A DNA stretch of 48,812 nucleotides from a virus, in the IMG/VR virus record IMGVR_UViG_3300007542_000002, positions 1 through 48,812 of that record; one strand, 5' to 3'. The notes beneath the pieces were generated by a model, which saw only the letters and a list, made by a program, of their open reading frames with translations, had not been told where the DNA came from and did no database searches. Of the stretch, positions 4,289 to 48,424 are shown one piece after another (the first letter of the stretch is position 1; the number at the start of each line of letters is the position of its first letter). A program made the translations under genes and the position numbers.

Positions 4289-4478
4289 TCGGGAGGCGGT
4301 CGGCGTTCTGCTCACCCGCCATGAGCAAGCCTAGCTGGAGCAGTCGCAGAGCCCGCCGTGCAGCCTTCAGGGCCGTGTCGGCGCGCACCGTCTCGCCGTC
4401 GGCATTGCCGAGCGCGAGCCACGCCGCATGCAAGAGATCGTAGGCCTCGTCATCGGTGAGGCGCCTGGGGCCGGTCAT
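4263..4478 (-). CDS. Possible small opposite-strand protein
   Basis: A 71-residue frame fills the only 210-base gap in the connector module. The predicted product is helical and acidic-to-basic balanced (DDEAYDLLHAAWLALG, then RADTALKAARRALRLL), unlike a random shadow. However, no ribosome site precedes the ATG, and its end overlaps the neck gene by 26 bases on the other strand. It could be an opposite-strand moron or simply a chance frame. Confidence 0.35.
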   Translation of the reverse strand: MTGPRRLTDDEAYDLLHAAWLALGNADGETVRADTALKAARRALRLLQLGLLMAGEQNADRLPTMRDPDGP

Positions 4479-4498
4479 CGGGACGGGAGACTAGCCGA

Positions 4499-4933: not shown

Positions 4934-4967
4934 CCCACCGCCCTCCCGCACAAGCTGTCTAATCACT

Positions 4968-4991
4968 GGCGTCCTTCGGGGCGCCTTTTTT
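4968..4991 (+). terminator. UUCG-tetraloop intrinsic terminator before the tail tube gene
   Basis: A 7-bp stem GGCGTCC / GGGCGCC (one G-T pair) closes a TTCG tetraloop and is followed by six Ts. This is a strong rho-independent shape. It lies in the middle of the late operon, so it should attenuate readthrough or require antitermination. Confidence 0.75.
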
Positions 4992-5008
4992 CATGAAAGG
5001 TGCCCGAA

Positions 5009-5506
5009 ATGGCCAAGATGTACCCCGTCGCGGGCTGCAAGTTCTTCATCGGCAATGCCGCGATTGCTGACCAGGATGACGCATTCGACGCCGCCGACTT
5101 CACGTCCGTTACATGGACCGAGGTCAAAGGTTGGGTGCAGATGGGTGCCGTTGGCGACGCCGCTGCGCTCGTCACGTCGGACCAGATCGGCAGCGCGCGA
5201 ACGAAGAAGGCCAAGGGCACGCGCAACGCCGGCTCGATGGAGAACGTCTTCGACGTGGTCGCCGACGACACCGGCCAGCTCGCGATGATCGCCGCGGAGC
5301 AGACGGACGACAACTACCCGTTCCGCATCACCTACAACGACGCGCCGCTCACCGGTTCGGCCCCCACGCCTTCGGAGAGCCTGTTCATCGGCATCGTCAT
5401 GTCGCAGGCCCGGCAGGGCGGCGGCGCCAACGATCCGCGGCGTCGGAACTTCAACATCGAGATCAACAGCAACATCGTGCCCGTCGCCGCCGCAACCGGC
5501 GCCTAA
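5009..5506 (+). CDS. Major tail (tube) protein
   Basis: A 165-residue protein. The ATG at 5009 is chosen over GTG 5000 because gaaagg lies 8 bases before it. The sequence has the tail-tube pattern: a short N-terminal strand, the TSVTWTEVKGWVQMGAVGD loop and sheet region, an ARTKKAKGTR segment, and later strands NYPFRITYNDAP and SLFIGIVMSQAR. It is followed by the chaperone gene, which is the usual order. High expression is expected; an aaggag site precedes the next gene. Confidence 0.8.
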   Translation: MAKMYPVAGCKFFIGNAAIADQDDAFDAADFTSVTWTEVKGWVQMGAVGDAAALVTSDQIGSARTKKAKGTRNAGSMENVFDVVADDTGQLAMIAAEQTDDNYPFRITYNDAPLTGSAPTPSESLFIGIVMSQARQGGGANDPRRRNFNIEINSNIVPVAAATGA

Positions 5507-5520
5507 GGAGCCTGAGCCAC

Positions 5521-5940
5521 ATGGCTGAACCCAAGAAGACCAGCGATACGGTCGACCTCGCGCAGTTCGACGAGATGCAGAGGCGCCAGGAAGACGGCAT
5601 CGACGTGAAGATCCTCTCGGCGGACGGCCGCAAGCCGCTCGGCTTCACGATCAAGGTTGCCGGGCCGGACAGCGAGCGAGCGATGCAGGCGCGCGAGCAG
5701 ATGGCCGACGAGATGGTCAACGAGGCGGACAACTCCATTGCCGGACTCCGGCAGCGGGCGCAGTACGCCATCAAGTATCTCGGCAAGGTCACGATGGGCT
5801 GGGGGCCTCGCGTCGTCGTCGGCGGCGAGGAACTGGCCTACTCGGAAGAGAACGCGACGAAGCTGTATCAGCGGTTCCCGTTCATCCGTGACCAAGTCGA
5901 CGCAGCGAGCAGCAGCCGCGCCCGTTTTTTGAAGGGCTGA
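5521..5940 (+). CDS. Tail assembly chaperone, short (G) form
   Basis: A 139-residue acidic and helical protein with a strong aaggag site. It sits between tail tube and tape measure and should coat the tape measure during tail assembly, like lambda gpG. The frame ends at TGA 5938 just after a run of six Ts at 5925-5930. That run is the shift point for the longer form. The GADGRKPLGFTIKV-like and VVVGGEELAYSEENATKLY segments are typical of siphovirus chaperones. Confidence 0.8.
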   Translation: MAEPKKTSDTVDLAQFDEMQRRQEDGIDVKILSADGRKPLGFTIKVAGPDSERAMQAREQMADEMVNEADNSIAGLRQRAQYAIKYLGKVTMGWGPRVVVGGEELAYSEENATKLYQRFPFIRDQVDAASSSRARFLKG

Positions 5941-6278
5941 TCGCGGCCCTGCGGAGGGCGGTGGAGGCGCGCCAGGACGGCAGGGCGTCCATCATACCCA
6001 TGGCGGGGGATCGGGCGTGGTCGGTCTTCTGGCGGCTCGACGCGCGCCGCACGGGGAACGGCTACGGGGCCAACGCGATCAGCCCGAGCGAAATCGACGC
6101 CTACGCCCGCATGTACGGTATGCGCCTGCGACGTTGGGAGCTTGACGCGCTCGACGTTATGGAGGCATCCCGGCTTCGTTGGCTGGATCGTATGGCGCGC
6201 CGTGACGAAGACGGCGAGCCGGATGTCGTCGAAGGCCAGCCAGTGACTCCGGCGCTGGTTAAGGCGCTGTTCGGGTAG
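5521..6278 (+). CDS. Tail assembly chaperone, -1 frameshift (GT) form
   Basis: A -1 shift on T TTT TTG (5925-5931) moves ribosomes from codon 137 into an open frame running to TAG 6276-6278, adding about 115 residues for a 252-residue product. The added domain (SPSEIDAYARMYGMRLRRWELDALDVME) matches the second chaperone domain of many siphoviruses, which recruits tail tube subunits. The downstream frame has only a GTG at 5961 with no good ribosome site, which supports expression by frameshifting. The family is well known for this mechanism. Confidence 0.75.
5925..5931 (+). promoter_or_regulatory. Programmed -1 frameshift slippery site
   Basis: The zero-frame codons are CGT TTT TTG, which gives heptamer T TTT TTG of the X XXY YYZ class. 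The zero frame stops seven bases later; the -1 frame is open for 115 codons and encodes a recognisable chaperone domain. Confidence 0.75.
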
Positions 6279-6279
6279 C

Positions 6280-6519
6280 CTACTTCGCCACGCAGTCATA
6301 GACGCGGTTCCTGACGCCTTGTCCGGGCGTTTCGAACCGGAACTTGGCGATCTTGCCGTATTGCCCGCACGCATATTGCGCCTGCGGTTCGACCTTATCG
6401 GGGTCGTCCAGCACGATGTCCTGTTCAATCGTCACGGAATCCGGACCGGCGGCGGCTATCGGTGGCGTACGCACACAGCCGGCAATCAGGGCGGCGGCGA
6501 TTAGGCAATAAAGGCGCAT
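6280..6519 (-). CDS. Small lipoprotein, opposite strand (moron)
   Basis: A 79-residue protein. The ATG at 6519 has GGAGG 7 bases upstream. It opens with a lipoprotein signal, MRLYCLIAAALIAGC, with the lipobox LIAGC at residues 12-16, so mature Cys16 should be lipidated. The mature part is short, with Cys residues at ACGQYG and YDCVAK that could form a disulfide. It lies on the strand opposite the tail genes, one base after the chaperone stop, and pairs with 6561-6866. A host-surface or superinfection role is plausible but not shown. Confidence 0.75.
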   Translation of the reverse strand: MRLYCLIAAALIAGCVRTPPIAAAGPDSVTIEQDIVLDDPDKVEPQAQYACGQYGKIAKFRFETPGQGVRNRVYDCVAK

Positions 6520-6560
6520 CCTTAGGCCTCCGTTCGTGGGGATCAATCAAGCGTCAGCAT

Positions 6561-6866
6561 CTATTGCGGCGTCAAGAGGTCACGGCAGAGCCGAGGGCCG
6601 GGACTTGTGGTGCCCTGATCCTGTCGCTCGACGGCGGCGATCATCTCTGCCGCTGTCGGCGACGTGACGCCGGCATCGGCGAGGATCTTGGGGACATCGG
6701 CCTTTGCCCTCGCATACGGCTTCGCGTCGTTGATCGCCGGGGCGCAGTGGTAGGCGACGGTGAGGCGCCAGCCGGCAAGGTTCACCGCGGCCTGCTGTTC
6801 GGCCGTCAGTGCATTTGCGGCAGTCGCCAAGCCGCACAGCGTCGCCGCCAAAATCATCGCCTTCAT
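6561..6866 (-). CDS. Small exported protein, opposite strand (moron)
   Basis: A 101-residue protein with a signal peptide (MKAMILAATLCGLATAANA, cleavage near residue 19). The mature part is helical, with Cys in AYHCAP and RLCRDLL that may pair. It is the first gene of a two-gene leftward unit, 41 bases before the lipoprotein gene. The unit interrupts the rightward tail operon, which is typical of moron genes expressed in lysogens. I recognise no family. Confidence 0.7.
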   Translation of the reverse strand: MKAMILAATLCGLATAANALTAEQQAAVNLAGWRLTVAYHCAPAINDAKPYARAKADVPKILADAGVTSPTAAEMIAAVERQDQGTTSPGPRLCRDLLTPQ

Positions 6867-6904
6867 CCCCGATCCCTATCCCGCAACTACGAGGCGCAGC
6901 AGAT

Positions 6905-9814
6905 ATGACCGTCGCCCGCCTCGGTTTCGAGGTCCAGTCGAAGCAGGCCGAAGAAGCCGCGATCGATCTGGACAAGCTCACGGACAGCGCGGGCAAAGCC
7001 CAGCGCGGCGCCCGTGGTGTTACGGCGGCGTCCAAGGAAATGTCGGCCTCGATGCAGGCCGTCACCGCCATCCTGCGGGACATCGAGCGGCACACGTCCA
7101 TCATGGCCGCGGGCTTCATGAAGGGTAGCGGCGCCATGAACGCCGTCGATGGGGCTGCGCAGCGTGCCGGGAAAGCCCTGGACGGTGCCTCGCGCGCGGC
7201 GACGACGACCGAGGCCGCGACCACGGGCATGACGAACGCCACCACCGGTGCGGCGGCTGCGGTGGACCGGCTGGTGGTCGAGGCGACGGACGCGACCAGG
7301 GTCGTGGACGCCATGGGGGCCGCAAACGACCGGGCCGCGACATCGGCCATGCGCCACATGCAGGCCATCGAGCAGTTGACCGCGGCGGAGCGTCGCATGA
7401 CGCCGGGCGCCAACACGTCGCGCGGCACCGACATCGACGCCTACGGGGCTGAACTTGACCGACTCCGAGCCAAGTACAACCCGGTCTTCGCCGTGTCGAA
7501 GGCCTACGAAGCCGAACTGGACCAGATCAACTTCGCCCATCGGGTGGGTGCGATCACCGCGCAGGAACAGGCCGCGGCCCTGGACCGGCTGAACGCGCAG
7601 TATACGGCACAGGTCGGGGCGGTGAACCGGGCAACCGGCGCGCTAGACATGAACAACGCGGCCATGCGGCGCGGCGGCACGGGCGTAGAGGCCGCTTCAT
7701 TCCAGCTTCGCAATCTCCGTTATCAGCTGTTCGACGTGGCGCAGACTGCGGCCCTCGGCATGAACCCGCTGCTCATCCTGATGCAGCAGGGGCCGCAGAT
7801 CGCGCAGATTTACGGGCCGGAGGAGGGCGGCGTCGCGCGGGCGTTCCAGGAGACCGGGACGATGCTGACGCGCATGGTCGTGCGTGCAGGGCCGGCTATC
7901 GCGGTCATCGGGACGTTGACGGTGGGTGTCGCCGCGCTGCGAAGCGAGATCAACGAGACCAAGGGCGCGACGGTCTCGATGGGTGATACGATGCTGGCGA
8001 TATTCCAGATGCTCGGCAGCGGCATCGAGTCGGCGTTCAAGCCGGCAATTGAGACGGTGAAGGCGCTGTTCTCGTCCTTCTGGAATGAGACGGGCGACCT
8101 CGCGCGCGACATGTTCAACGACATGGCGCGAAGCGGGGCTGCGTTTGGCAGTTCGACGCGACGGGAAATCGAGGTGCTGGGCGCCTATTGGAATGCCGGC
8201 GTCACGATGATCAAGCGGGCTTGGGAACTGCTGCCGGGCGCTCTCGGCGACCTGACGATGCAGACGGTGAACAACGTCATCGGCGGCATCGAGGACATGG
8301 TCAACGGGGCTATCTCGCGCATCAATGCCCTCATCGACCTCGTCAACAAGATCCCCGGCGTTGAACTCGGCAAGATGTCGACGGTGACGCTGGGGCGTCC
8401 GCAGAACATCTTTGCCGGGCAGTCGGCATCGTTCGCCAACGCCATGGCCAGCGCGAGCGCTGAAGCGTCCAAGGCCGTCGAGAAAGCCAACGCCGATCAC
8501 GAGCGCCGCATGGCCGGTATCGGCAAGTGGGATGCTTTCGGCGACCTGCGCACCCGTGCCATGGCGAACGACCGCGCCAACGACAAGCCGGACAAGGGGG
8601 CGAAGAAGGCAGCAGACGAGGCCGCGCGCGCTGCGGAGAAGATCCGCGGCGAGATGCAGAGCATTCAAAGCGCCGTCAACTCGTTCGACCTATCCAAGAT
8701 GGGCGACGTTGCCCAGGCGGTGGCGCCGTGGTTGGAGCGTGCCGGCCAGCTTCGCGAGGCGATCGAGAGCGGCGTTCTGCCGGCGAAGGATCTGGCGAAC
8801 GCCCACAAGCTGCTGGAGGAGACGTTCCGCGTAGCCGCACAGGCCGCCGACGAGGCGCGCACGAAGCTGATGGGGATCGGCGACGAACTGGTCCGGCAGC
8901 CGGATCTGCTGCGCGAGGAAATCAACGCTCTGGACCGCAGCCAGGGCGCCTACGACCGCCTTATGGACGCGCGGAAGCTGAATGCCGACGTGATGGCCTA
9001 CGAAAAGGACCTGCAGGACGCCGTCGCCCGCGGCTACGTGATCCAGGGCGATACGGTCGAAGGTCTGGTCCAGAAGTACCGAGGCCTCACGGAAGAACGG
9101 AACGCAGCCGCCGTCGTGCGCGACGTGACCGACAAGGTGGCGAACGACAACCTGCGGGAGCAGAAGGCGCTGATCGGCGGCTTCATGTCGGACGTGAAGT
9201 ACGGGCTCCAGCAGGGACATAGCGCGTGGGAAGCCTTCGGTGACGCGGCGACCCGCGCACTGGACCGGATCACGAACAAGGCCCTGGACGATCTGATCGA
9301 CAAGCTGCTGGAGGTCCAGAACGTCGGCAGCGGCAGCGGCGGAAAGGGCGGCCTGCTCGGCAGCCTGATCAGCCAGGGCTTCTCGTTCGTCACCGGATTG
9401 TTCGGCGGGTCCACGGCGTCGCCGGGCCTCTCGCTTGGGCGGGGCGACACGACCGGGGCCGGCGGTGCCGGCTTCTCCTACACGTCCTACGGCGGGCCTC
9501 GTGCCAACGGCGGTCCCGTCGACCCATCGCGCTGGTACATGGTCGGTGAGAATGGCCCGGAGCGGTTCCAGCCGGACGTGCCGGGCAGGATCATCCCGAA
9601 CCACAAGCTGCGTGCGGCTAACGACGCCTCGCCGATGGGCGCCCAGGCGCAGCAGGTCGCTCTGACCCTGACGCTCTCCGAGGATCTGAACGCCCGCATG
9701 ACGCAGACGGCGGAGAACGTGTCGGTGCGGGTGGTTAAGCAGAAGTCGCCGGGCATCGTCAAGGAGAGCGTCGGCGCCGTGTACGCCGCGAACCAGGAGC
9801 GGCCGCTCCGATGA
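6905..9814 (+). CDS. Tail tape measure protein
   Basis: A 969-residue protein, by far the longest in the tail module. The ATG at 6905 begins the conserved TVARLGFEVQSKQAEEA segment; longer frames run into the opposite-strand gene. Helical repeats fill residues 1-260. The segment FQLRNLRYQLFDVAQTA.LGMNPLLILMQQGPQIAQIYG (in pieces, about 265-305) marks the tape-measure family PF06791. A hydrophobic section follows at about 320-345 (IAVIGTLTVGVAAL). The C-terminus carries GENGPERFQP, the usual end motif. It sets tail length and may help DNA entry. Confidence 0.92.
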   Translation: MTVARLGFEVQSKQAEEAAIDLDKLTDSAGKAQRGARGVTAASKEMSASMQAVTAILRDIERHTSIMAAGFMKGSGAMNAVDGAAQRAGKALDGASRAATTTEAATTGMTNATTGAAAAVDRLVVEATDATRVVDAMGAANDRAATSAMRHMQAIEQLTAAERRMTPGANTSRGTDIDAYGAELDRLRAKYNPVFAVSKAYEAELDQINFAHRVGAITAQEQAAALDRLNAQYTAQVGAVNRATGALDMNNAAMRRGGTGVEAASFQLRNLRYQLFDVAQTAALGMNPLLILMQQGPQIAQIYGPEEGGVARAFQETGTMLTRMVVRAGPAIAVIGTLTVGVAALRSEINETKGATVSMGDTMLAIFQMLGSGIESAFKPAIETVKALFSSFWNETGDLARDMFNDMARSGAAFGSSTRREIEVLGAYWNAGVTMIKRAWELLPGALGDLTMQTVNNVIGGIEDMVNGAISRINALIDLVNKIPGVELGKMSTVTLGRPQNIFAGQSASFANAMASASAEASKAVEKANADHERRMAGIGKWDAFGDLRTRAMANDRANDKPDKGAKKAADEAARAAEKIRGEMQSIQSAVNSFDLSKMGDVAQAVAPWLERAGQLREAIESGVLPAKDLANAHKLLEETFRVAAQAADEARTKLMGIGDELVRQPDLLREEINALDRSQGAYDRLMDARKLNADVMAYEKDLQDAVARGYVIQGDTVEGLVQKYRGLTEERNAAAVVRDVTDKVANDNLREQKALIGGFMSDVKYGLQQGHSAWEAFGDAATRALDRITNKALDDLIDKLLEVQNVGSGSGGKGGLLGSLISQGFSFVTGLFGGSTASPGLSLGRGDTTGAGGAGFSYTSYGGPRANGGPVDPSRWYMVGENGPERFQPDVPGRIIPNHKLRAANDASPMGAQAQQVALTLTLSEDLNARMTQTAENVSVRVVKQKSPGIVKESVGAVYAANQERPLR

Positions 9815-22048: not shown

Positions 22049-23020
22049 CTATTTATTCAAACGCTTGCCGGGTGATTTGCCAGCGGTTTCCATTTGGAGA
22101 ATGGCCGCCGTCGCCAACCCGCGCTGCCGTGCAGACTTCGTGTAGTGCGATACCGTCGCCAGTGACTTGTGGCCGGTGACAGCCATGATCTGGAATTCAG
22201 AGCATCCCGCCTCGGCGAGCAGGTGCGCCGCAGTGTGCCGCAACCCGTGAAACGTGAGCCCGTGAAGGGCAACGTGGTCTCGCGCCTCACGCCAGAACGT
22301 CGTCGCGAAGCTGTTGCTCCCCAGGGGCCACGGCCGGCCGCGCTCGTTCACGAGGATGCGCACCGACTGCGCCTCGCGCTTCCACGCATCCAGTTCGGCT
22401 TTCAGCGTCGAGTGGCAGTGAATCCATAGATCAACGTCGGTCTTCTGCTGCCGGAGCGTGATGCCCTCTCCGTCGTAGGCGCTCCAGGGCATCGCCAAGC
22501 AGTCGCCTTGCCGCTGGCCGCTGTAGAGCGCGAGAACAACGGCCCGCCGCAGCGGCTCCGGCAGCCGTCCGGGCGTCGTCGCATACTGCACCGCCTCATC
22601 GCTCCAGCGGGCGCGCGACCCGGTCTCCAGGGGCTTCACGCCGTGCGCAACGTTGTGCTCTACGATCTCTCGGTCGCGCGCGAAGGTGAGCAGCGCAGAC
22701 AGGGTGCCGAGCACTTGGTTGGCGAGCGCCGGCCGGTCGTATAGGCTGTCGCGGACTTCCATGATATGCCGCCGTCGTATGTCGGTCACCGCCAAGGCGC
22801 CTAGGCCCCTGATGCGGTTGAATGCCCGCAGGCGTATCTTCTTCGTGTTTTCTTTGGCGCTTCGAAAGCCAGGGCTGACCCGATACTGGACGATCAGCTC
22901 GTCAAGCGTGGTCGGGCGCTTGGCCTTCGGTTCGCCGCGGTTGTAGGCGTAGGTTTTGACGGTCCCGTCCGCCAACACCTTTCGCACCAGCTTGACGCCG
23001 ACGCCTTTCGTCTTCCGCAT
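22049..23020 (-). CDS. int: Tyrosine integrase
   Basis: A 323-residue site-specific recombinase for entry into and exit from the host chromosome. The catalytic set is complete: Arg170 (YSGQRQGD), Lys193 (QQKTD), His258 and Arg261 (FHGLRHTAA), His284 (VTGHKS) and Tyr293 (VSHYTKS). Residues 38-130 form the core-binding domain. The N-terminus (VGVKLVRKVLADGTVKTYAY) is usual for integrases of alphaproteobacterial phages. It overlaps the excisionase-like gene upstream by 119 bases. Its presence shows the phage is temperate. Confidence 0.95.
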   Translation of the reverse strand: MRKTKGVGVKLVRKVLADGTVKTYAYNRGEPKAKRPTTLDELIVQYRVSPGFRSAKENTKKIRLRAFNRIRGLGALAVTDIRRRHIMEVRDSLYDRPALANQVLGTLSALLTFARDREIVEHNVAHGVKPLETGSRARWSDEAVQYATTPGRLPEPLRRAVVLALYSGQRQGDCLAMPWSAYDGEGITLRQQKTDVDLWIHCHSTLKAELDAWKREAQSVRILVNERGRPWPLGSNSFATTFWREARDHVALHGLTFHGLRHTAAHLLAEAGCSEFQIMAVTGHKSLATVSHYTKSARQRGLATAAILQMETAGKSPGKRLNK

Positions 23021-26398: not shown

Positions 26399-27151
26399 TT
26401 ATGCGGCCTCCTCGCCGGCAAGCTGCTTCAGACGGGCATCGAACCGGGCAGCCAGCTTTTCAGCGAGCGCGGGTTTGATGTGTGAGAGGTTCTTCCGCGC
26501 GGCCTCGCACTCCTTCTGGAGGTTCAGGCATTCGCGGTAATCGTTCGTGCCGTCGATGGCGCCGCCGACTGCAACCAGCCAAGCGGCCCAATCGGGCTTG
26601 TCGTTTTTGTGAGGGACTGGGACGGAGACAGACGCGGTCGTGATCTCGGTCGGCGGCTCCACCGGCTTGTCGGCGGGCTTCTCCGGGGCGTCCTCGGCAG
26701 CCTCGATGCGCGCCGGCAGGATCTTACGCAGGCGGTCGAACTCGCTCGGCTCGATCTGCTTGAACTGGTTCAGCTTCACCCATGGGCTGGCCACGTCGTA
26801 TAGGTACCGGCCGATGCCCCACTTCACCGCCGCCCTTTTGAAGGCGCTGGAGATACTGCCCTTTTCGGCCTCGACCGCCGTATCCCCGGCGCCGTCGGCC
26901 TTCGTGATCCAAGCGCCGTCGTGCAGCACGGACAGGTAGCAGATGGTCCGGGGCCCATCGAACTCGTATCGGTCCTGCCACCCGGCCGGGCCGCACACCG
27001 CGTCCAGGCGGTCCATGACGGCGCGCGCATCGACATAGCAGAGGGCCATGCCCTTGCTCTTGTCCTTGGTCGTGCTGCCGACGCGCCACTCGACATCCTT
27101 GGGCTCGAAGGGCGCGGCCAGCTTGTCGAAGATCGTCGCGGGCTTGGTCAT
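26399..27151 (-). CDS. Rad52-family single-strand annealing protein
   Basis: A 250-residue protein that joins complementary ssDNA, a phage recombinase of the Rad52/22 (Sak) superfamily. Motifs: WRVGSTTKDKSKGMALCYVDARAVMDRLDAVCGP.GWQDRY (in pieces, 22-62) and the hallmark GAGDTAVEAEKGSISSAFKRAAVKWGIGRYLY (in pieces, 87-118). The C-terminal ~100 residues are less ordered, with a Pro-rich linker and a helical end. It starts on the stop of the Gp157-like gene and lies directly before ssb, forming a recombination module. Confidence 0.9.
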   Translation of the reverse strand: MTKPATIFDKLAAPFEPKDVEWRVGSTTKDKSKGMALCYVDARAVMDRLDAVCGPAGWQDRYEFDGPRTICYLSVLHDGAWITKADGAGDTAVEAEKGSISSAFKRAAVKWGIGRYLYDVASPWVKLNQFKQIEPSEFDRLRKILPARIEAAEDAPEKPADKPVEPPTEITTASVSVPVPHKNDKPDWAAWLVAVGGAIDGTNDYRECLNLQKECEAARKNLSHIKPALAEKLAARFDARLKQLAGEEAA

Positions 27152-32976: not shown

Positions 32977-33044
32977 CCGCCCGCATGACGGCGCTCGCGC
33001 TCAGCATCTCCCACTGGCTCGACACCGCAGAGGGCGAGCGATGA
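32973..33044 (+). CDS. 23-residue peptide in the coupled chain
   Basis: ATGA overlaps link this frame to the preceding and following genes. It may be a short leader that couples translation of the methyltransferase gene, or a real peptide (MTARMTALALSISHWLDTAE). Confidence 0.35.
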   Translation: MTARMTALALSISHWLDTAEGER

Positions 33045-33730
33045 GCCGCGTGGAAGCCATCGGGGACGCGACCCTGTATCTGGGCGACATGGCCGACATT
33101 CTCCCGACGCTCGGCCGGTTCGATGCGTGCGTAACTGATCCGCCATACGGCATCGGGAAAGACGGTCAGATGCGGACCACTGGCGGGCACGGAGGCCGTA
33201 AGGCTTACGAGTTCCGCAACTGGGATGCAATGCGCCCCCCGGCATCGGCATTTCATGCGATGTCAGACGCCGCAGACGTTCTGGTGATTTGGGGCGGCAA
33301 CTACTTCGCAGACCTCCTGCCAGCGACCGGCAAGTGGTTGGTCTGGGACAAGGGCCAGAGGATCAACCAGTCGGACGGCGAACTGGCGTACACCAGCCTT
33401 CCCGGCGCCCTTCGCATCTGCACCTTCAACCGCGTCGAACTGATGAAGGACGGCGCAGAGCACCCGACGCAGAAGCCGCTCCGGCTGATGCAATGGACGC
33501 TTACGCAGATCGGTAATCCGCCTCGCGTAGTCGACCCATTCATGGGGTCCGGGACCACTGGCGTCGCCTGCGTCAAGGCAGGGCTCTCGTTCACCGGCAT
33601 CGAGCGTGACGAGCGGTATTTCGACATCGCTGTCCGCCGCATCGAGGCCGCTTACCGCCAGCCCGACATGTTCCGCGAGCCCCCGAAGAAGGCGGTCCAG
33701 CTTGGCCTGCCCACGGGAGAGGTCGCATGA
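33041..33730 (+). CDS. Adenine/N4-cytosine DNA methyltransferase, beta class
   Basis: A 229-residue enzyme. The catalytic motif DPPY lies at 33-36, before the AdoMet motif DPFMGSGTT at 165-173; this order is the beta class (N6-adenine or N4-cytosine). HPTQKP at 141-146 is another family mark. It methylates DNA and may protect against host restriction. It overlaps the C5 methyltransferase gene (ATGA). No restriction enzyme gene is adjacent, so it is a solitary methylase. Confidence 0.92.
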   Translation: MSRVEAIGDATLYLGDMADILPTLGRFDACVTDPPYGIGKDGQMRTTGGHGGRKAYEFRNWDAMRPPASAFHAMSDAADVLVIWGGNYFADLLPATGKWLVWDKGQRINQSDGELAYTSLPGALRICTFNRVELMKDGAEHPTQKPLRLMQWTLTQIGNPPRVVDPFMGSGTTGVACVKAGLSFTGIERDERYFDIAVRRIEAAYRQPDMFREPPKKAVQLGLPTGEVA

Positions 33731-34629
33731 CCGTCCGGCGCGTCCCGACGAGCCCGTGCTCGAAAAGCGCCGACACCCGCCCGGCTGGGCAGGTAGCCGA
33801 TGCCGGGCGGGGGAAACTCCGGGTGCTCTCGCTGTTCGCTGGCATCGGCGGGTTTGACCTTGGGCTTGAGCGCACGGGCGGCTTTGAAACCGTCGCGTTC
33901 TGCGAGATCGATCCATTCTGTCGGCGCGTGCTGGCGAAGCACTGGCCGCATGTGAGGCAGTACGAGGATGTCCGAGAACTCACCGCCGACCGCCTGGCAG
34001 CAGACGGAATTGCCGTGGATGTCATCTGCGGCGGCTTCCCCTGCCAGGACATCAGCGCAGCGGGGCGGCGGGGTGGCATGGGCGGCGCGCGCTCTGGCCT
34101 CTGGCGCGAGTACGCCCGCCTTATTGGCGAGATACGACCGCGGTACGTCATCGTGGAGAACAGCGCAGGTCTCCTTGGCCTTGGGCTCGGAGTTGTCCTC
34201 GGTGATTTGGCCGCGCTCGGGTTCGATGCAGAGTGGGATTGCCTACCAGCGGCCATCCTTGGCGCCCCCCACGGCAGAGATCGCGTCTGGATTACTGCCT
34301 ACGCCTCGAAAATCGAGGGGATACACAAACCCGACATTGGGCACGAGCTATGGCGCTGGCTGTCTGACCACCGAAATGCTTGGGCGCCCTGTCCTTGGGC
34401 ATCGTCCGAAGCCGCAGTTTGTCGAGTGGATGATGGGGTTCCCGATCGGGTGGACCGAACTGGCGCCCTCGGTAACGCCGTTGTCCCGCAAATCCCCGAG
34501 CTAATCGGCCGCGCAATCCTCGCATCAATCCGCGATTCCGAGATCCAGGTGCCTCCCGCCTGGACGACTGGCCCGCTGCTGCCGCCTCGTGCTGGCGCGG
34601 CGGGCCGCTTTCTACGGGGGGACGCATGA
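33727..34629 (+). CDS. C5-cytosine DNA methyltransferase
   Basis: A 300-residue enzyme. Motif I FAGIGG is at 37-42, motif IV GGFPCQDIS at 102-110 with catalytic Cys106, ENS at 144-146, RDRVWI at 184-189, and motif X ALGNAVVPQ at 247-255. The target recognition section between RDRVWI and motif X is short (about 55 residues). The same DNA carries a second, recognisable frame (33968-34504). It overlaps both neighbours by four bases. Confidence 0.92.
   Translation: MTVRRVPTSPCSKSADTRPAGQVADAGRGKLRVLSLFAGIGGFDLGLERTGGFETVAFCEIDPFCRRVLAKHWPHVRQYEDVRELTADRLAADGIAVDVICGGFPCQDISAAGRRGGMGGARSGLWREYARLIGEIRPRYVIVENSAGLLGLGLGVVLGDLAALGFDAEWDCLPAAILGAPHGRDRVWITAYASKIEGIHKPDIGHELWRWLSDHRNAWAPCPWASSEAAVCRVDDGVPDRVDRTGALGNAVVPQIPELIGRAILASIRDSEIQVPPAWTTGPLLPPRAGAAGRFLRGDA
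33968..34504 (+). CDS. Possible overprinted gene within the C5 methyltransferase
   Basis: A 178-residue frame lies wholly inside the methyltransferase gene in another frame. From about residue 50 it shows a string of segments I recall from phage proteins linked to DNA methylases: YDRGTSSWRTAQ, WPRSGSMQSGIAYQ, GLLPTPR, and FVEWMMGFPIGWTEL. Random frames rarely give such a set. I see no strong ribosome site. It may be a real dual-coding region or a relic of an earlier frame. Confidence 0.35.
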   Translation: MSENSPPTAWQQTELPWMSSAAASPARTSAQRGGGVAWAARALASGASTPALLARYDRGTSSWRTAQVSLALGSELSSVIWPRSGSMQSGIAYQRPSLAPPTAEIASGLLPTPRKSRGYTNPTLGTSYGAGCLTTEMLGRPVLGHRPKPQFVEWMMGFPIGWTELAPSVTPLSRKSPS

Positions 34630-34952: not shown

Positions 34953-35462
34953 GTGAGTCTGCACGAACTGGTCGAGCAAGCGGCAAAGACCGCGCTCGAA
35001 ACAAGCATGGGGCACCTGCCCGAAGCGGTCGAGCGCATGGCCATCGCAGTCCGCGGTGACGCAAAGCTCTATGCCGCCCTGACGCGCCCGCATGTCGCGG
35101 AGTTGTGCCTGGCTGCCCTGCGGACGGTTCAGGCTACCGAGCGCGCGCCGAGAGAGCCGCGCCCTTACGGGCCGCGCGCGTCGACCGAGCACGACAGCGG
35201 CGCCTCTATCCGCGCCCTGGCTGCGGGCAATGCCGCGATCCTGCTGGCGACCGTCCTGCCGAGCGGGATCGTCCTGGAGAAGGCGACGCGCGGCGAAGTT
35301 GCCGCCGCCGCGGATGTCTACGAGGCGAAGGAGAAGCGCGCCGGGCACAAGTCCCGTTGGCTGCGCCTCGTCGCCCAATGCGTCCCTGAAGACAAGACCG
35401 TAGGCCGTGCGCTGACCGAGCGCCGCCTGCAAGAACTGCGGGAGGAAGCAAACCGTGGATAG
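34953..35462 (+). CDS. Hypothetical protein
   Basis: A 169-residue protein with GTG start; ggggaga lies about seven bases ahead. It is helical with a loop-rich middle (TERAPREPRPYGPRASTEHD). The section AAGNAAILLATVLPSGIVLEKATRGEV is hydrophobic. It overlaps the IS110-like gene by eight bases. No family is recognised. Confidence 0.6.
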   Translation: MSLHELVEQAAKTALETSMGHLPEAVERMAIAVRGDAKLYAALTRPHVAELCLAALRTVQATERAPREPRPYGPRASTEHDSGASIRALAAGNAAILLATVLPSGIVLEKATRGEVAAAADVYEAKEKRAGHKSRWLRLVAQCVPEDKTVGRALTERRLQELREEANRG

Positions 35463-36894
35463 AACAGAATTCGACGGCCGCGATGCGATTGACATCCAAT
35501 CATCTGCTGCTGTCGACGGGCCGGCCAGTTATGACCGTTGCGCACCCGATGTCGTAGTGCCGGCCCTTACCTCAAACGGCGACCATAGTGTCTCTGACAC
35601 CCGTTCAAACTGCGTCGCCGCGGAGCCGGCCTTACATGGATCGTCACCCGGACCTGTAGTGCCGGCTCCGACCTCTTTCGACGGCCTTGGTACACGCGAC
35701 AACCATCTTGCAACCGCCGTCGATAACGGGCCGGCCGTAGTAGCGCTGTCTCCCACAAGGCAACTGCCGGCCCGTACCAACACTGAGACCGTCGGTCTAA
35801 ATGGAAGCGTCACCCCCGCAAACCATGCCGACGAGGGGCGGGCCGTCAGAACGTCGACACCCATGGACATTCTGCCCGCCCCGAAGAAACGAGCCGCGCG
35901 CAAGGCTGCCGTAATACTCTCGGCGCCCATATCGGAGGCGCAGCCCAAGCGCGGCTCGCGCAAACAGGCCACCGCCCGCAGTCATAAGAGCAGCCCGTCG
36001 CCCGATATAGCGCAGACCGCGAGCGGTGGTCCTGCCAAGAAAGCCCGCGACCGGAAGGCCGTAGAACTCACGGCACCCACTCGACCGGCGCCGCCGGCCG
36101 CGGGCCTCGCCAACCAGGACGGGGAACAGGCCATTTATGGCCCGACGCCCGTGATAGCCACGCCCAACCCCGTCCTGGCCCCCATCGTCCTCGAAATCCG
36201 CGTGCTTCACCGGCAGCGGCAGGATCTCATGCGCGCGGAGACATCCCTGACGCTCCAGATCCGCGCCAACTGCCGGCGTCTCTGCGGCGGCGATAAGGAC
36301 GAAGCCGGCGCGATCTACAAGGCGATGTGCGGCAAGGGGCAGCACGACCTAGCCCAAGTCGCAGAGATGGCCAGCGCGCCACTCCTGGAGGCGCGAGAGG
36401 TCATCTCCCGGCACAAGAAGTCCACCGAGAAGCGGCTCGACCAGCTCGCCGGGCAACTGCCGATAGCGCAGTGGGTGAACGGCATCCGAGGCATGGGCAT
36501 CGCCTCCCTGGCGGCCGTCATCGGCGAGACAGGCGACCTGTCCACCTACGCGAACCCGGCGAAGGTGTGGAAGCGCATGGGCCTCGCCGTCATCGGCGAC
36601 CAGCGCCAGCGCAAGATTGCCGGTGACGCGGCGCTCCTGCACGGGTTCAGCCCCACCCGTCGCGCCATCATGTGGAACATCGGCGCCTCGATGCTGCGTT
36701 CCGCCGGAACCTACCGGCCGGTCTACGACGCGCGCAAGGCATACGAGCTTGCCCGCGGCATTCCCGCCGGTCAGGCCCACGCCCGCGCCAAGCGGTACAT
36801 GGAGAAGCGGCTGCTGCTGCACATCTGGCGCGCCTGGAACGGCATGGCTGTTCCCGAAGTGACGCCGTACGTCGCGCTGGAGGACGCGGCATGA
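35455..36894 (+). CDS. Phage protein with IS110-transposase-like C-terminal domain
   Basis: A 479-residue protein. Residues 1-230 are low in complexity with repeated short hydrophobic-Pro-Thr motifs (VVPALTS, VVPAPTS, VILSAPIS, VELTAPT). A coiled coil follows (about 240-335). Residues about 343-415 (IRGMGIASLAAVIGETGDLSTYA, then VWKRMGLAV) match the C-terminal Tnp domain of IS110/IS116 transposases (PF02371). The N-terminal DEDD nuclease domain is absent and the region where the catalytic Ser should stand reads QRQRKIAG, with no Ser. It is probably a domesticated, non-transposing protein. No element ends are seen. Confidence 0.7.
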   Translation: MDRTEFDGRDAIDIQSSAAVDGPASYDRCAPDVVVPALTSNGDHSVSDTRSNCVAAEPALHGSSPGPVVPAPTSFDGLGTRDNHLATAVDNGPAVVALSPTRQLPARTNTETVGLNGSVTPANHADEGRAVRTSTPMDILPAPKKRAARKAAVILSAPISEAQPKRGSRKQATARSHKSSPSPDIAQTASGGPAKKARDRKAVELTAPTRPAPPAAGLANQDGEQAIYGPTPVIATPNPVLAPIVLEIRVLHRQRQDLMRAETSLTLQIRANCRRLCGGDKDEAGAIYKAMCGKGQHDLAQVAEMASAPLLEAREVISRHKKSTEKRLDQLAGQLPIAQWVNGIRGMGIASLAAVIGETGDLSTYANPAKVWKRMGLAVIGDQRQRKIAGDAALLHGFSPTRRAIMWNIGASMLRSAGTYRPVYDARKAYELARGIPAGQAHARAKRYMEKRLLLHIWRAWNGMAVPEVTPYVALEDAA

Positions 36895-43039: not shown

Positions 43040-43582
43040 ATGGCGGGACTGACGGCAAAGCAGCGTCGGTTCGTGGCCGAATACCTCGTTGACCTCAACG
43101 CGACCAAGGCAGCGACCCGCGCCGGCTACAGCGAGAAGACCGCGTATTCGGTCGGGCACGAGCTATTGAAGAAACCTGAGATCGCCGCGGCACTGGCGGA
43201 GGCACAGGACGCCGCGCAGAAGCGGACGGGCGTCACGACGGACCGGGTGCTCCGGGAGTTGGCGCGCATCGGCTTTTCGGACATCCGTAAGGCGTTCACT
43301 GAGAGCGGCCACTTGCTCAACCCCCAGGACTGGGATGACGAGACGGCCGCATCGATCGCGTCCATCAAGGTCATCACCCGACCCGAGGGCGAGACCGACG
43401 AGAACGGCAAGCGCAAGGTCGAGCATGTCCACGAGGTGAAGTTCTGGGACAAGAACTCCGCCCTGGAGAAGCTGGCCAAGCATCTCGGCATGTTCATCGA
43501 GCGCCACGAGCACACGGGCAAGGACGGGGGGCCGATTGAAACCCGCACGCTCGCAGACTTCTACGGCGGCACCGACACTTAA
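43040..43582 (+). CDS. terS: Terminase small subunit
   Basis: A 180-residue DNA-packaging protein. It begins GLTAKQRRFVAEYLVDLNATKAATRAGYSEKTAYSVGHELLKKPEI (in pieces, 3-48), the PF03592 (Terminase_2) signature with a HTH for the packaging site. GVTTDRVLRELARIGFSDIR and a LEKLAKHLGMF section follow. The ~47-base overlap with the large subunit gene suggests joint translation. Confidence 0.93.
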   Translation: MAGLTAKQRRFVAEYLVDLNATKAATRAGYSEKTAYSVGHELLKKPEIAAALAEAQDAAQKRTGVTTDRVLRELARIGFSDIRKAFTESGHLLNPQDWDDETAASIASIKVITRPEGETDENGKRKVEHVHEVKFWDKNSALEKLAKHLGMFIERHEHTGKDGGPIETRTLADFYGGTDT

Positions 43583-44939
43583 CCCGGCCCTTCGGTCGTT
43601 CTGGACAGCCCCGGCACGCAACAGGGTCCTCTACGGCGGGCGGTCATCGAGCAAGTCATGGGATGCGGCGGGCTTCGCGGTGTTCCTCGCGTCGAACTAC
43701 CGCATCCGCGTCTTGTGCGCTCGGCAGTTTCAGAACCGCATAGCGGAATCGGTCTACACGCTCCTGAAGATCCAGATCGAGCGGTTCGGCCTGGCTGACG
43801 AGTTCGCCATCACGGACAACTCGATCAAGCATCGCCGCACCGGCTCGGAGTTCATGTTCTACGGCCTCTGGCGCCACATCGACGAGATCAAGTCGCTAGA
43901 GGGTATCGACATCTGCTGGATCGAGGAGGCTCACAACCTCACCGAAGAGCAGTGGAAGGTACTGGAGCCGACGCTTCGCAGCGAGGCGTCGCAGTTCTGG
44001 GTGATCTTCAACCCGCGCCTGACCACGGACTTCGTCTACCGCCGCTTCATCACGAACACGCCGCCGAAGACCATCAAGCGGCAGATCAACTACGACGAGA
44101 ACCCGTTCCTATCGCAGACGATCCTGGACGTGATCCAGGCGGCGCGAGACGAGGACGAAGACGAGTACCGGCACATCTACCTCGGAGAGCCGAGGCAGGA
44201 CGACGATTCCGTCATCATCAAGCGGTCGTGGATCCAGGCGGCGATCGATGCGCACGTCCGGCTCGGCATAGCGCCGTCCGGTCGCAAGCGTGTCGGGTTC
44301 GACGTGGCCGACGACGGCGCAGACAAGAACGCTTCGGTACTGGCGCATGGCATCGTCGCCCTTGCGGTGGAGGAGTGGAAGGGCAGGGAGGACGAATTGT
44401 TGAAGTCGGCTTCCCGTGTCCATGCCCTGGCTGCCGAGAGCGGCGCCGAGATCGACTATGACAGCATCGGCGTGGGTGCTTTCGCTGGCGCGCACTTCAA
44501 GGCGCTGAACGACGAGAAGGGCATCAACATCGCCTACCACCGCTTCAATGCCGGGGGCGAGGTGTTGAACAAGGACAAGCGGATCGACCCGGCTGACCCG
44601 AAGTCGCCGCTGAATGGCGACTACTACGCGAACATCAAGGCGCAGGCCTGGTGGGGCGTCTCCAGGCGCTTCCGCAGCACCTACAACGCGGTCACCAAGG
44701 GCGAGCGCATCGCGGAGGATGACCTGATCAGCATCTCCAGCGACTGCGAGCACCTGGACGCGCTGATCGACGAACTGTCCACCCCGCGCCGGGACTTCGA
44801 CAACCGGGGCAAGGTGAAGGTCGAGAGCAAGAAGGATCTGGGCAAGCGTGACGTGGCGTCGCCGAACAAGGCCGACGCCTTCATCATGGCGTTCGCCCCG
44901 CGATCCGGCTCGCCGCTCAGCTACGCCAACGTGGGATGA
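43536..44939 (+). CDS. terL: Terminase large subunit
   Basis: A 467-residue motor and nuclease for DNA packaging, PBSX-type (PF04466). The Walker A-like motif GGRSSSKS lies at about 34-41 and Walker B IDICWIEEAH at about 123-132. The C-terminal nuclease shows VGFDVADDGADKNA and IDYDSIGVGAF. TTG 43536 is the only plausible start in frame before the conserved LNPALRSFW segment, so the gene has a rare start inside terS. This type of enzyme often packages by headful. Confidence 0.93.
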   Translation: MKPARSQTSTAAPTLNPALRSFWTAPARNRVLYGGRSSSKSWDAAGFAVFLASNYRIRVLCARQFQNRIAESVYTLLKIQIERFGLADEFAITDNSIKHRRTGSEFMFYGLWRHIDEIKSLEGIDICWIEEAHNLTEEQWKVLEPTLRSEASQFWVIFNPRLTTDFVYRRFITNTPPKTIKRQINYDENPFLSQTILDVIQAARDEDEDEYRHIYLGEPRQDDDSVIIKRSWIQAAIDAHVRLGIAPSGRKRVGFDVADDGADKNASVLAHGIVALAVEEWKGREDELLKSASRVHALAAESGAEIDYDSIGVGAFAGAHFKALNDEKGINIAYHRFNAGGEVLNKDKRIDPADPKSPLNGDYYANIKAQAWWGVSRRFRSTYNAVTKGERIAEDDLISISSDCEHLDALIDELSTPRRDFDNRGKVKVESKKDLGKRDVASPNKADAFIMAFAPRSGSPLSYANVG

Positions 44940-44943
44940 CCAG

Positions 44944-46773
44944 ATGACCAACGTCGTCCCGCTCCATGACTCGCTGCGAGCGACCATCGGCGGGCTCGGC
45001 GACCCTGCGCGCGACAAGGCGGCCGGCGTCTACTACGCGCAGTCCCACCTGACCGACGAGCAGTTGCTGAACACCTACCGGTCCTCGTGGCTGGCCCGGA
45101 AGATCGTGGACGTGCCGGCTCTGGACAGCATCCGCAAGGGTCGCGACTGGCAGGCCGAGGGCGATCAAATCGAAAAGCTGGAGGCGGAGGAGGCCCGGCT
45201 CGGTCTGTGGGGCAAGCTGCTCGATGCGCGTGTCAAGGCGCGCCTATGGGGCGGCTCGGCACTCTACATCGGGACGGGGGACACAAACCCGGCCCTGCCG
45301 CTGAACCCTGAGCGCGTCGCCCTTGGGGGCCTGCGCTACGTCACCGTGTTGTCTCGTCGGGAGATCATCGCGGGGGAGTTGGACCAGGACGCTCTGTCGG
45401 AGACCTACGGGCGCCCGGCCAGCTACCAGGTGAGCGGCAACGGACGGCTCGCCATGGTCCATCCGTCCCGCCTCGTGATCTTCATCGGCAGCCCGCATCC
45501 GGACCCGTGGCTCTCGTTCGGCCCGAACCGGGGATGGGGCGACAGCGCGCTGCAATCGGTCATGTCGGCGGTGCAGAACGCGGACAGCACCGCGGCGAAC
45601 ATCGCCAGCCTCGTATTCGAGGCCAACGTGGACGTGTTCGGCATCGAAGGCCTGATGGACCAGGTGATGCACCCGGAGTTCCGGACGCAGCTTATGACCC
45701 GGTTCACGCTCGCCGCGGCGAACAAGGGCATCAACCGGTCCCTGATCAGGGACAAGCAGGAAGAGTATGATCGGAAGCAGATCAGCTTCGCAAATCTGCC
45801 GGAAGTCCTGCAGGAGTTCCTGATTTCGGTAGCGGGGGCATCAGACATTCCGGCTACCCGGCTGTTGGGGCGCTCGCCGGCCGGCATGAACGCCACGGGT
45901 GATAGTGATATCCGGCTCTACTACGACCGTATCCAGTCCATGCAGGAGCTGGAGATGCGCCCGGCGCTGTCTCGGCTCGATGAGTGCCTGATCCGGTCGA
46001 CCTTCGGAGAGCGCGATCCGGACATCCACTACCGGTGGGCATCGCTCTGGCAGGTCAGCGACAAGGACCGCGCCGACATCCTGAAGGTTAAGGCGGACGC
46101 GGCCCGGACGATTGCGGGCACCGGCGGGACATCGCCGCCGCTGATGCCTATCGAGGCGCTGAGCGAGGCTCTGGTCAACTCCATCACGGAGGACGGCTCT
46201 CTGCCGGGCCTAGAGGCCGCCATAGACGAGTTCGGCGTCCTCGCTGAGCAGGAAGACGAGCCGGAGACGATGGTCGCGGCAGTGACGCCGGTGGCTGGGG
46301 AGGCGCCGTCCAACGCACCTGCGCGCATGGCTGCAAACGACGCGAAGCCCCGTACTTTGTACGTCCGGCGCGACGTACTGAACCGGGGCGATATTGAGCG
46401 ATGGGCGAAGGCGCAGGGCTTCAGCCAAATCGTGCCGGACTTGCACGTCACCGTTGCCTACAGCCGAACGCCCGTCGACTGGTTCAAGGTCGGCACGTCA
46501 TGGTCCGACAAGGTGGAGATCGGCGCCGGCGGGCCGCGCCAGATGGAGCGGCTGGGCGCCGACGGGAAGTACATCGTCCTGCTCATCACCGCGAACGAAC
46601 TGGTCTGGCGCCACCGCGAAATCATCGAGGCCGGCGCATCGTGGGATTGGGCGGACTACCAGCCGCACATCTCCATCCAAATCGGCGGCGACATCGATCT
46701 TGAGAAGGTCGAGCCCTACCAGGGACGCATCGTCCTGGGGCCGGAGATCTTCGAGGAATTGAGGGCCGACTGA
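44944..46773 (+). CDS. Portal protein (DUF1073) fused to an Acb1-like anti-CBASS domain
   Basis: A 609-residue protein. Residues about 1-430 are a DUF1073 portal: LLNTYRSSWLARKIVDVPALDSIRKGRDW, ARLWGGSALYIG, and IPATRLLGRSPAGMNATGDSDIRLYYD (in pieces). This forms the ring through which DNA passes. Residues about 475-609 match Acb1, a 2H phosphoesterase that cuts cyclic nucleotide signals: LHVTVAYSRTPVDW (His501, Thr503) and ASWDWADYQPHISIQ (His575, Ser577). Both HxT/S motifs are intact, so the domain may be active. The fused form is known in phage databases. Confidence 0.85.
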   Translation: MTNVVPLHDSLRATIGGLGDPARDKAAGVYYAQSHLTDEQLLNTYRSSWLARKIVDVPALDSIRKGRDWQAEGDQIEKLEAEEARLGLWGKLLDARVKARLWGGSALYIGTGDTNPALPLNPERVALGGLRYVTVLSRREIIAGELDQDALSETYGRPASYQVSGNGRLAMVHPSRLVIFIGSPHPDPWLSFGPNRGWGDSALQSVMSAVQNADSTAANIASLVFEANVDVFGIEGLMDQVMHPEFRTQLMTRFTLAAANKGINRSLIRDKQEEYDRKQISFANLPEVLQEFLISVAGASDIPATRLLGRSPAGMNATGDSDIRLYYDRIQSMQELEMRPALSRLDECLIRSTFGERDPDIHYRWASLWQVSDKDRADILKVKADAARTIAGTGGTSPPLMPIEALSEALVNSITEDGSLPGLEAAIDEFGVLAEQEDEPETMVAAVTPVAGEAPSNAPARMAANDAKPRTLYVRRDVLNRGDIERWAKAQGFSQIVPDLHVTVAYSRTPVDWFKVGTSWSDKVEIGAGGPRQMERLGADGKYIVLLITANELVWRHREIIEAGASWDWADYQPHISIQIGGDIDLEKVEPYQGRIVLGPEIFEELRAD

Positions 46774-47927
46774 TGCACTTCACTGACCGGCTTACGTTGG
46801 ACGGCGAGATCCGCCGGACCGGCGATGGGTATGCCGTGGTCTCCGCCCGCGTGGCGCGGGCCGGCAACGTCCAGGCCTACACCGGCGCCGAGATCGGGGT
46901 GTCGGATAAGGCTGTCGTGCGCGTCTACCGTCCGGCCGATGCCGTGTTCCGTCGCGATGCGTTAGCGTCCTATGCGGGGGTCCCGGTCACCGTTGGGCAC
47001 CCCGCCGGCAAGGTCGATGCCACGTCGTGGAAGGATCTGGCGGTCGGCGAGGTCGGCGACGAGGTGCTGCGCGACGGCGATTTCGTCCGCGTGCCGATGA
47101 TGCTGCGCGACGCTAAGGCAATCGCGGCGGTCGAAGGCGGCATGCGCGAGCTGTCGATGGGCTACGACGCGCAACTGACCATGGCCGACGGCTTGACCCC
47201 GGACGGGCAGCCGTTCGATGCGGTCATGTCCGACTTCAAGATGAACCACGTCGCGATTGTCGATAAGGCGCGCGGCGGGCACGAACTCCGCATCGGTGAC
47301 GGTGCGGTGACCTGGGGCGCAAGCCCGATTTCCACCACCGATGAGAGGAACCCGGTCATGCCGGAAGCAAACCTGCGTACGGTGGTCGTGGACGGACTGT
47401 CGGTGCAGACCACCGATCAGGGCGCCCAGGCCATCGACAAGCTCCAGAAGGCCGTTGCCGATGCGCTGGCGAAGGCTGCGGATGCCGAAACCGCGCACGC
47501 TGCCGCGATCAAGGCGAAGGACGAGGAGATCGGCTCCCTGAAGGCCGAGAACCAGAAGATCAAGGACGCCGCGCCGAAGCCGGCCGATCTGGACCGCATG
47601 GTTGCGGCTCGTGTCGCACTCGTCACCACGGCGCGCGCCATCGTGGCCGACGTGAAGGTCGACGGCCTGACCGACGCGGACATCCGCAAGTCGGTCGTCA
47701 CGTCGAAGCTCGGCGCCGAGCTGGTGAAGGACGCCAGCGACGACATGATCGCCGGCATGTTCAAGGCCATCGCCAAGGACGCGAAGCCGGTCGACCCGTT
47801 CCGCGCGGCACTTCAGAGCCGCACCCATACCGCCGACAGCAGCGACCCGAAGGCCGTTGCCGATGCGGCCTATGCCAAGCGTACGGAAACCCTCCGCGGC
47901 GCTTGGGAACCGAAGACCGCGGCCTGA
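46773..47927 (+). CDS. Prohead protease/scaffold fusion (DUF2213-like)
   Basis: A 384-residue protein. Residues 1-190 match DUF2213 protease-like proteins: GYAVVSARVARAGNVQAYTG, PVTVGHPAGKVD and FKMNHVAIVDKARGG. Residues 230-270 are a coiled coil (DALAKAADAETAHAAAIKAK), and the rest is a scaffold-like helix region. An internal ATG at 47358, with gagagg nine bases upstream, could start the scaffold part alone (about 189 residues), as in other phages. It overlaps the portal stop as TGATG. Confidence 0.8.
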   Translation: MHFTDRLTLDGEIRRTGDGYAVVSARVARAGNVQAYTGAEIGVSDKAVVRVYRPADAVFRRDALASYAGVPVTVGHPAGKVDATSWKDLAVGEVGDEVLRDGDFVRVPMMLRDAKAIAAVEGGMRELSMGYDAQLTMADGLTPDGQPFDAVMSDFKMNHVAIVDKARGGHELRIGDGAVTWGASPISTTDERNPVMPEANLRTVVVDGLSVQTTDQGAQAIDKLQKAVADALAKAADAETAHAAAIKAKDEEIGSLKAENQKIKDAAPKPADLDRMVAARVALVTTARAIVADVKVDGLTDADIRKSVVTSKLGAELVKDASDDMIAGMFKAIAKDAKPVDPFRAALQSRTHTADSSDPKAVADAAYAKRTETLRGAWEPKTAA

Positions 47928-47956: not shown

Positions 47957-48424
47957 ATGGCAGTGGTGCAGAGCACCTATGCGACCACGCTCCCGGTCGG
48001 CTATCCGGGCATGGTCGCGAACGGCGAGACGAGCAATCGTATCTCGCGCACGGTCGAAGATGCCGCCGGCATCGGTTTCGGCGTCGCGGTCTTCCGCGGC
48101 TCCGGCGATCACGGCGTCACGGCGACCCCGTCCGCAGCGCTTCTCGGCATCACCATCGCCGACAAGACGCAGATGGAGTTCCCGAACTCCGACACCGCCG
48201 ACGAATACGCCCAGTACGCGACCTGCGCCATCATGACGCTCGGTGTGATCTGGGTCACGGCGGGGTCGAACACGACCGATGGAGCAGCCGTCTACGTCGG
48301 TGACGGCGATCCCGATACGGCCGGCATCTTCACCGCTTCGTCCACCGGCAACGTCGCGCTCACGGGCTGGACGTTCCAGGACACCGTGTCGAGCGGCGCC
48401 CTCGTGCGCATCGCTCGCCGCTGA
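47957..48424 (+). CDS. Head cement-like structural protein
   Basis: A 155-residue beta-rich protein; aaaggag lies ahead of the ATG. It reads VVQSTYATTLPVGYPGMVANGE, then GIGFGVAVFRGSGDHGV and ITIADKTQMEF, ending ALVRIARR. The pattern is that of P22 gp24-like cement proteins, which sit between scaffold and capsid genes and stabilise the shell from outside. Confidence 0.75.
   Translation: MAVVQSTYATTLPVGYPGMVANGETSNRISRTVEDAAGIGFGVAVFRGSGDHGVTATPSAALLGITIADKTQMEFPNSDTADEYAQYATCAIMTLGVIWVTAGSNTTDGAAVYVGDGDPDTAGIFTASSTGNVALTGWTFQDTVSSGALVRIARR

Follow-up and report, generated by a model that had tools for sequence, protein, structure and literature searches.

A phage portal protein with a C-terminal Acb1-family 2H phosphoesterase domain that behaves as an exchangeable cassette

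The portal gene and its place in the head operon

The DNA analyzed here (the window) is a stretch of 48,812 nucleotides from a virus, comprising positions 1 to 48,812 of the IMG/VR record IMGVR_UViG_3300007542_000002. Near its 3′ end lies a gene encoding a portal protein with an additional C-terminal domain, surrounded by terminase and head genes. The features are as follows, with residues numbered in the portal protein.

43040..43582, + strand: terminase small subunit (Pfam Terminase_2, E 9.7e-43)
43536..44939, + strand: terminase large subunit (Pfam Terminase_3, E 4.9e-38), ending 4 nt before the portal ATG
44944..46773, + strand: portal-Acb1 fusion gene, 609 aa, with its ATG at 44944 and its stop codon ending at 46773
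45061..46104, + strand: portal core, Phage_portal_3/DUF1073, residues 40-387 (Pfam E 1.4e-107; 8HDS E 2e-180)
46231..46338, + strand: variable acidic/Ala-Pro linker, residues about 430-465 (column entropy; similarity between relatives breaks here)
46351..46770, + strand: predicted Acb1-type 2H phosphoesterase domain, residues 470-609, without the C-terminal lid (Pfam E 4.9e-34; AlphaFold2 model and structure search)
46360..46362, + strand: Y473, equivalent of the base-stacking T4 Y12 (alignment)
46444..46452, + strand: catalytic motif 1, H501-V-T503 (aligns with T4 H44/T46; 66/66 in the core-sampled set)
46648..46650, + strand: W569, equivalent of the base-stacking T4 F107 (alignment)
46666..46674, + strand: catalytic motif 2, H575-I-S577 (aligns with T4 H113/T115; His 66/66, Thr/Ser 66/66)
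46753..46755, + strand: E604, aligned with the adenine-contacting T4 E141, uncertain by one residue (alignment)
46773..47927, + strand: DUF2213 protein, probable prohead protease/scaffold, a function assigned by synteny only (Pfam DUF2213, E 7.8e-50)
47957..48424, + strand: head cement protein (Pfam Phage_cement, E 2.2e-35)

As shown, the portal gene is located directly 3′ of the large terminase gene and is followed by the DUF2213 and cement genes, with the ATG of the DUF2213 gene overlapping the portal stop codon. The terminase, portal, and head genes form a compact late operon, and a consensus scan found no sigma-70-type promoter of its own before the portal gene. The window, a viral record, also carries integrase and tail tape-measure genes; the phage is temperate, and its host is probably Rhizobiales-like, as judged from its nearest relatives. 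Two integration-type enzymes are encoded, a phage integrase family protein (22049-23020, − strand) and a transposase-like protein (35455-36894, + strand), and two DNA methyltransferase genes, one for a C-5 cytosine methylase, lie side by side at 33041-34629. A Rad52/22-type recombinase is encoded at 26399-27151 (− strand), which might assist the recombination that swaps portal tails.

Identity and predicted fold of the C-terminal domain

The first-pass annotation had described the gene as a complete portal followed by an Acb1 domain, and the Pfam search bore this out. Phage_portal_3 (PF06381, formerly DUF1073) matched over nearly its whole profile (positions 2-355 of 357) with 360 bits against a cut-off of 33.8, and Acb1 (PF23474) matched residues 470-609 over profile positions 1-140 of 144 with 117.6 bits against a cut-off of 27. 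Both matches are far beyond chance. In the same search, the LigT_PEase and 2_5_RNA_ligase2 profiles stayed below their cut-offs on this domain. A sequence search of solved structures likewise matched the protein over its full length to the Pam3 portal (8HDS) and its tail to FBB1 Acb1 (7T26, E 3e-5). In PHROGs, the portal was assigned to phrog_146 and the C-terminal part to phrog_755, labelled RNA ligase, a label that is also carried by the T4 57B (Acb1) gene in its record. PADLOC gave no match.

An AlphaFold2 model of the domain alone, built from 35 sequences, reached a pLDDT of 91.4 and a pTM of 0.85. Foldseek against the PDB placed the two FBB1 Acb1 structures at the top (7T26, E 1.7e-7; 7T27, E 2.1e-6), and structure comparison gave Z values of 16.1 and 15.9, respectively, with an rmsd of 1.9-2.0 Å over 130 residues. 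A Burkholderia phage phosphodiesterase came next (Z 13.8), and E. coli LigT and Usb1 were found near Z 10. The predicted fold is that of a 2H phosphoesterase closest to Acb1, and the mismatch of fold that would have contradicted the first reading was absent. The full-length model was poor (pLDDT 55) and served only to find 8HDS and its modelled-residue count. Profile, predicted fold, and catalytic tetrad together assign the domain to the Acb1 domain family, an assignment that we do not extend to a complete T4-type Acb1.

Active site and conservation of the domain

Hobbs et al. 2022 (PMC9117128) described the catalytic residues of T4 Acb1 as H44, T46, H113, and T115, the stacking residues as Y12, W74, F107, and W147, E141 as contacting adenine, and residues 145-152 as a lid that becomes ordered upon ligand binding; in FBB1 Acb1, the W147-bearing lid closes over the substrate. 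The two 2H motifs of the window protein, His501-x-Thr503 and His575-x-Ser577, were located exactly where they had been claimed and align with the four catalytic residues of T4, S577 standing in place of T4 Thr115 as in many relatives. At the stacking positions, Y12 corresponds to Y473, F107 to W569, W74 to E535, and W147 to nothing. E535 sits in a poorly anchored loop of the alignment, and W74 is not conserved among relatives. The window protein ends at D609, equivalent to T4 D146 and one residue short of the lid tryptophan, so that T4 lid residues 147-152 have no counterpart. Consequently, the earlier description of the domain as intact stands for the catalytic core, which is complete as read from the alignment, but not for the T4-type nucleotide-capping lid, which is missing together with W147, nor for the W74 position. 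Neither feature defines the curated family: the stacking aromatics were described for T4 and FBB1, and the lid varies between members of the profile.

Similar lid-less endings (FEELRED-stop and the like) were observed in a large set of relatives. The lid was absent in 27 of the 66 lid-scored fusions sampled by portal core (about 40%), and others keep a tryptophan there; on the portal tree, lid-less and lid-bearing forms are interspersed, with 12 changes.

Among 66 complete Acb1 domains, the window included, from loci picked by portal core and not by domain, H501, T503, H575, and E601 were invariant and position 577 was always Thr or Ser, at a median identity between domains of only about 57-61%. 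In a mostly domain-selected set, each of these five positions was kept in at least 92 of 93 sequences, and the first His in 92 of 93; one portal fusion (L010) has Arg at this position and is probably a natural inactive copy. Column entropy was highest in the linker (2.4), compared with 1.5 in the core and 1.0 in the domain. The median dN/dS of the domain did not exceed the portal core value (about 0.24 vs 0.38), a weak support only, since the loci compared had been selected by domain and their sites were near saturation.

The domain as an exchangeable cassette

Loci sampled by portal core alone and reduced at 95% identity gave 106 cores, of which 55 carried Acb1, 48 a short tail only, and one each PBECR3, an ADP-ribosyltransferase, and another domain; these are the portals nearest the query, and the proportions apply to this lineage only. 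On the core tree, from which the tail was excluded, presence and absence of Acb1 required 26 changes, at least 21 of them forced by well-supported branches. Two cores that are 98.8% identical differ in this way (L132 without the domain, L159 with Acb1), and their DNA match breaks off in the linker and restarts near the next gene. The same break pattern was observed in a cultured pair, Rhizobium phage RHph_TM3_3_3 with the domain and RHph_N28_2 without it. Among the fusions, core and domain identities were uncorrelated (rho 0.00 over 54 rows at 95%, the truncated domain of L128 being excluded; 261 of 500 permutations were as high); for instance, L140 and L116 have cores 97% identical and domains 54% identical.

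Because close relatives lack the domain or have another effector domain in its place, it is an optional cassette. Furthermore, gain and loss between near-identical cores, together with the uncorrelated identities, indicate that the portal can function without the domain and that recombination in or near the linker exchanges it. Within this portal lineage, the Acb1 domain is thus a detachable and often swapped cassette.

Other occupants of the position were observed individually. The L026 portal (6001-7785) is fused to a PBECR3 RNase-like domain (PF18812) in place of Acb1, and in the L109 portal (4001-6019) the position of Acb1 is taken by a C-terminal ADP-ribosyltransferase domain (PF03496, E 2.5e-22); another portal (L264) was assigned to PBECR3 from sequence resemblance alone. 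In RHph_N28_2, a PBECR3 gene (L004, 7320-7679) directly follows the portal gene.

The interval between the portal and DUF2213 genes ranged from −3 to 3421 nt in relatives, and the window has nothing there. Its cargo in relatives, often on the opposite strand, included AbiC-like genes (L017, L126, L209), a DUF3800-like gene just below the cut-off (L136), and, in relatives including L144, L130, and L162, DUF4145, an Imm45 match, an acyltransferase, and others. These contents therefore indicate that the 3′ end of the portal gene borders a cargo hotspot, and the predicted products mark the interval as a defence-related neighbourhood.

Distribution among phages and prophages

A search of a phage collection with the portal matched 1671 records, but query coverage reached at least 80% in only 32 of them. 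Among these are Rhizobium, Synechococcus, Pseudomonas (phiPSA1 group), Pseudanabaena Pam3, Aminobacter, and Sinorhizobium phages, and the full-coverage records are annotated only as portal, head, or hypothetical. The domain itself matched 164 records, which, apart from portal fusions, were mostly free T4-like copies. Relatives of the domain turned up in at least 422 viral contigs, and portal fusions make up nearly all of the best 80. Prophage copies were found in Rhizobiales and other Alphaproteobacteria, Pseudomonas, Xanthomonas, and Stenotrophomonas. An apparent fusion to a prohead protease in the tblastn list, from DSS3P8, was rejected. The gene (KT870145, gp129; L003, 5989-6441) bears a prohead protease label and encodes a free-standing, misannotated Acb1-family protein of 150 aa.

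Proposed function of the portal-tethered domain

We propose that the portal-tethered Acb1-type domain is probably a late-expressed anti-CBASS enzyme, on the strength of its sequence and modelled fold. The domain would be catalytically active against the cyclic di- and trinucleotides that CBASS-type defences produce, and its natural target would be CBASS or a comparable cyclic-nucleotide signal. Freshly synthesized portal subunits would exert this activity in the cytoplasm of the cell that makes the phage, at the stage of late gene expression, since the gene is part of the closely packed terminase-portal-head operon and no separate start for a free enzyme is evident; the signals would be degraded before assembly is complete. 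The long variable linker may let the domain work without disturbing portal assembly. As for a free enzyme, an internal start with an in-frame ATG or GTG and a Shine-Dalgarno-like site was present in 24 of 160 fusions, compared with 11.6% of control windows, giving it no clear support.

Nine further Acb1 homologues all cleaved 3′3′-cGAMP and cAAA in tests by others (PMC9117128); no activity measurement for any portal-fused copy was found in the literature searched. Counting against the anti-CBASS proposal are the missing lid, the unconserved W74, and the fact that T4 Acb1 is free and differently placed. CBASS-type SMODS synthases were found in 9 of 77 host genomes and showed no association with the domain among prophage hosts (4 of 33 with it vs 5 of 44 without it; Fisher p 1.0); the test is weak, and this result neither helps nor harms the proposal much.

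Alternatively, the enzyme could be delivered by the virion, with up to twelve copies inside the head on the C-terminal side of the portal. It would then act in the next infected cell, still tethered or set free by the prohead protease. The portal of E217 has a C-terminal barrel that points into the head (PMC10329688), which would place the domain inside the capsid, and Iyer et al. 2017 (PMC5512222) made the case that fusions on portal and MuF proteins enter the particle and are injected. Moreover, the occurrence of PBECR3 and ADP-ribosyltransferase domains at this site in relatives resembles an effector-delivery platform. However, the portal ring is not known to be ejected, and delivery would therefore require a release step. 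The Pam3 portal shares the architecture of the window protein, and 8HDS gives coordinates for 442 of its 621 residues, a figure available as a residue count only; the search with the domain alone did not list that structure. In particles, the domain may be flexible or disordered, or it may have been removed. We regard virion delivery as unlikely, and the suggestion of the first-pass annotation that the activity is present in every assembled head did not find support in that form. A broader version, in which the portal C-terminus is a general payload slot whose Acb1, PBECR3, and ADP-ribosyltransferase domains are swapped by host pressure, carried in the virion in up to twelve copies per head, and used at the start of the next infection, appears similarly doubtful.

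An RNA substrate has about the same small chance of being correct. Here the domain would be an RNase or would process 2′,3′-cyclic phosphate or 2′-5′ ends, for example against an RNA-cleaving defence. RNase action was one of the two options of Iyer et al., the PHROGs label points in the same direction, the LigT and Usb1 folds are related to the domain (Z about 10), and the absent lid and W74 could mean a more open pocket for another substrate. Nevertheless, the Acb1 fold match lies about six Z units above LigT, and the Acb1 profile matched over its full length while the two RNA-associated profiles fell under their cut-offs. Lastly, a structural or degenerate remnant that only aids portal or capsid assembly, with little catalysis, would be in keeping with the lid loss in a large group of relatives and the lost first catalytic His of L010, but we consider it very improbable: the catalytic residues are invariant in all 66 domains, the dN/dS of the domain is not above that of the core in those domain-selected, near-saturated pairs, and near-identical portals often lack the domain wholly, showing that assembly does not need it.

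If the anti-CBASS enzyme proposed here is active, widespread temperate phages, many of them in rhizobia and soil bacteria, would carry CBASS counter-defence on an essential structural protein, where it would have gone unnoticed under the annotation of portal protein. In staphylococcal phages, the RNA that triggers CBASS derives from terminase genes (PMC10686824). The terminase genes lie immediately upstream here, so a counter-defence coupled to their operon would be sensible in timing. Natural pairs of portals that are up to 98.8% identical and differ in whether they carry the domain offer a ready, clean test of its function.

Comparison with known systems

Acb1 activity was demonstrated by Hobbs et al. 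2022 (PMC9117128), and by profile, sequence, and predicted fold the window domain belongs to the same family as Acb1 of T4 and FBB1 (PDB 7T26/7T27). Common to them are the HxT/HxT(S) tetrad, Y12, and an aromatic residue at the F107 position. In contrast to the free T4 and FBB1 enzymes, the window domain is attached C-terminally to a late structural protein, lacks the C-terminal lid with W147, and has an acidic residue in place of W74; the T4 gene also lies in a different genomic setting. The closest full-length homologues described here, the portals of Pam3 (8HDS) and RHph_TM3_3_3, combine portal and Acb1 and are 48% and 57% identical to the window protein over its whole length, respectively. 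The terminase-portal-head order is shared with the window, although another gene follows the portal in both, and Pam3 keeps the lid tryptophan that the window protein lacks.

The portal-2H fusion itself was already known, as the first-pass annotation had stated. Iyer et al. 2017 (PMC5512222) described that 2H domains, like PBECR, occur in fusion with MuF or portal domains, and proposed that they act as RNases or else degrade the nucleotides of nucleotide-activated counter-invader systems. The window fusion is a further example of that architecture, with the same proposed anti-nucleotide-defence role and no fundamental difference. What our analysis adds is gain and loss, swapping, and lid loss within one lineage; as far as the literature was searched, no earlier description of the cassette behaviour or the lid-less subset was found. 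Similarly, the MuF polymorphic toxins of temperate phages (PMC5576092) bear interchangeable C-terminal enzymatic domains on a head protein. There, however, the MuF minor head protein, whose gene neighbours that of the portal, serves as the carrier, and the payloads are mostly toxins.
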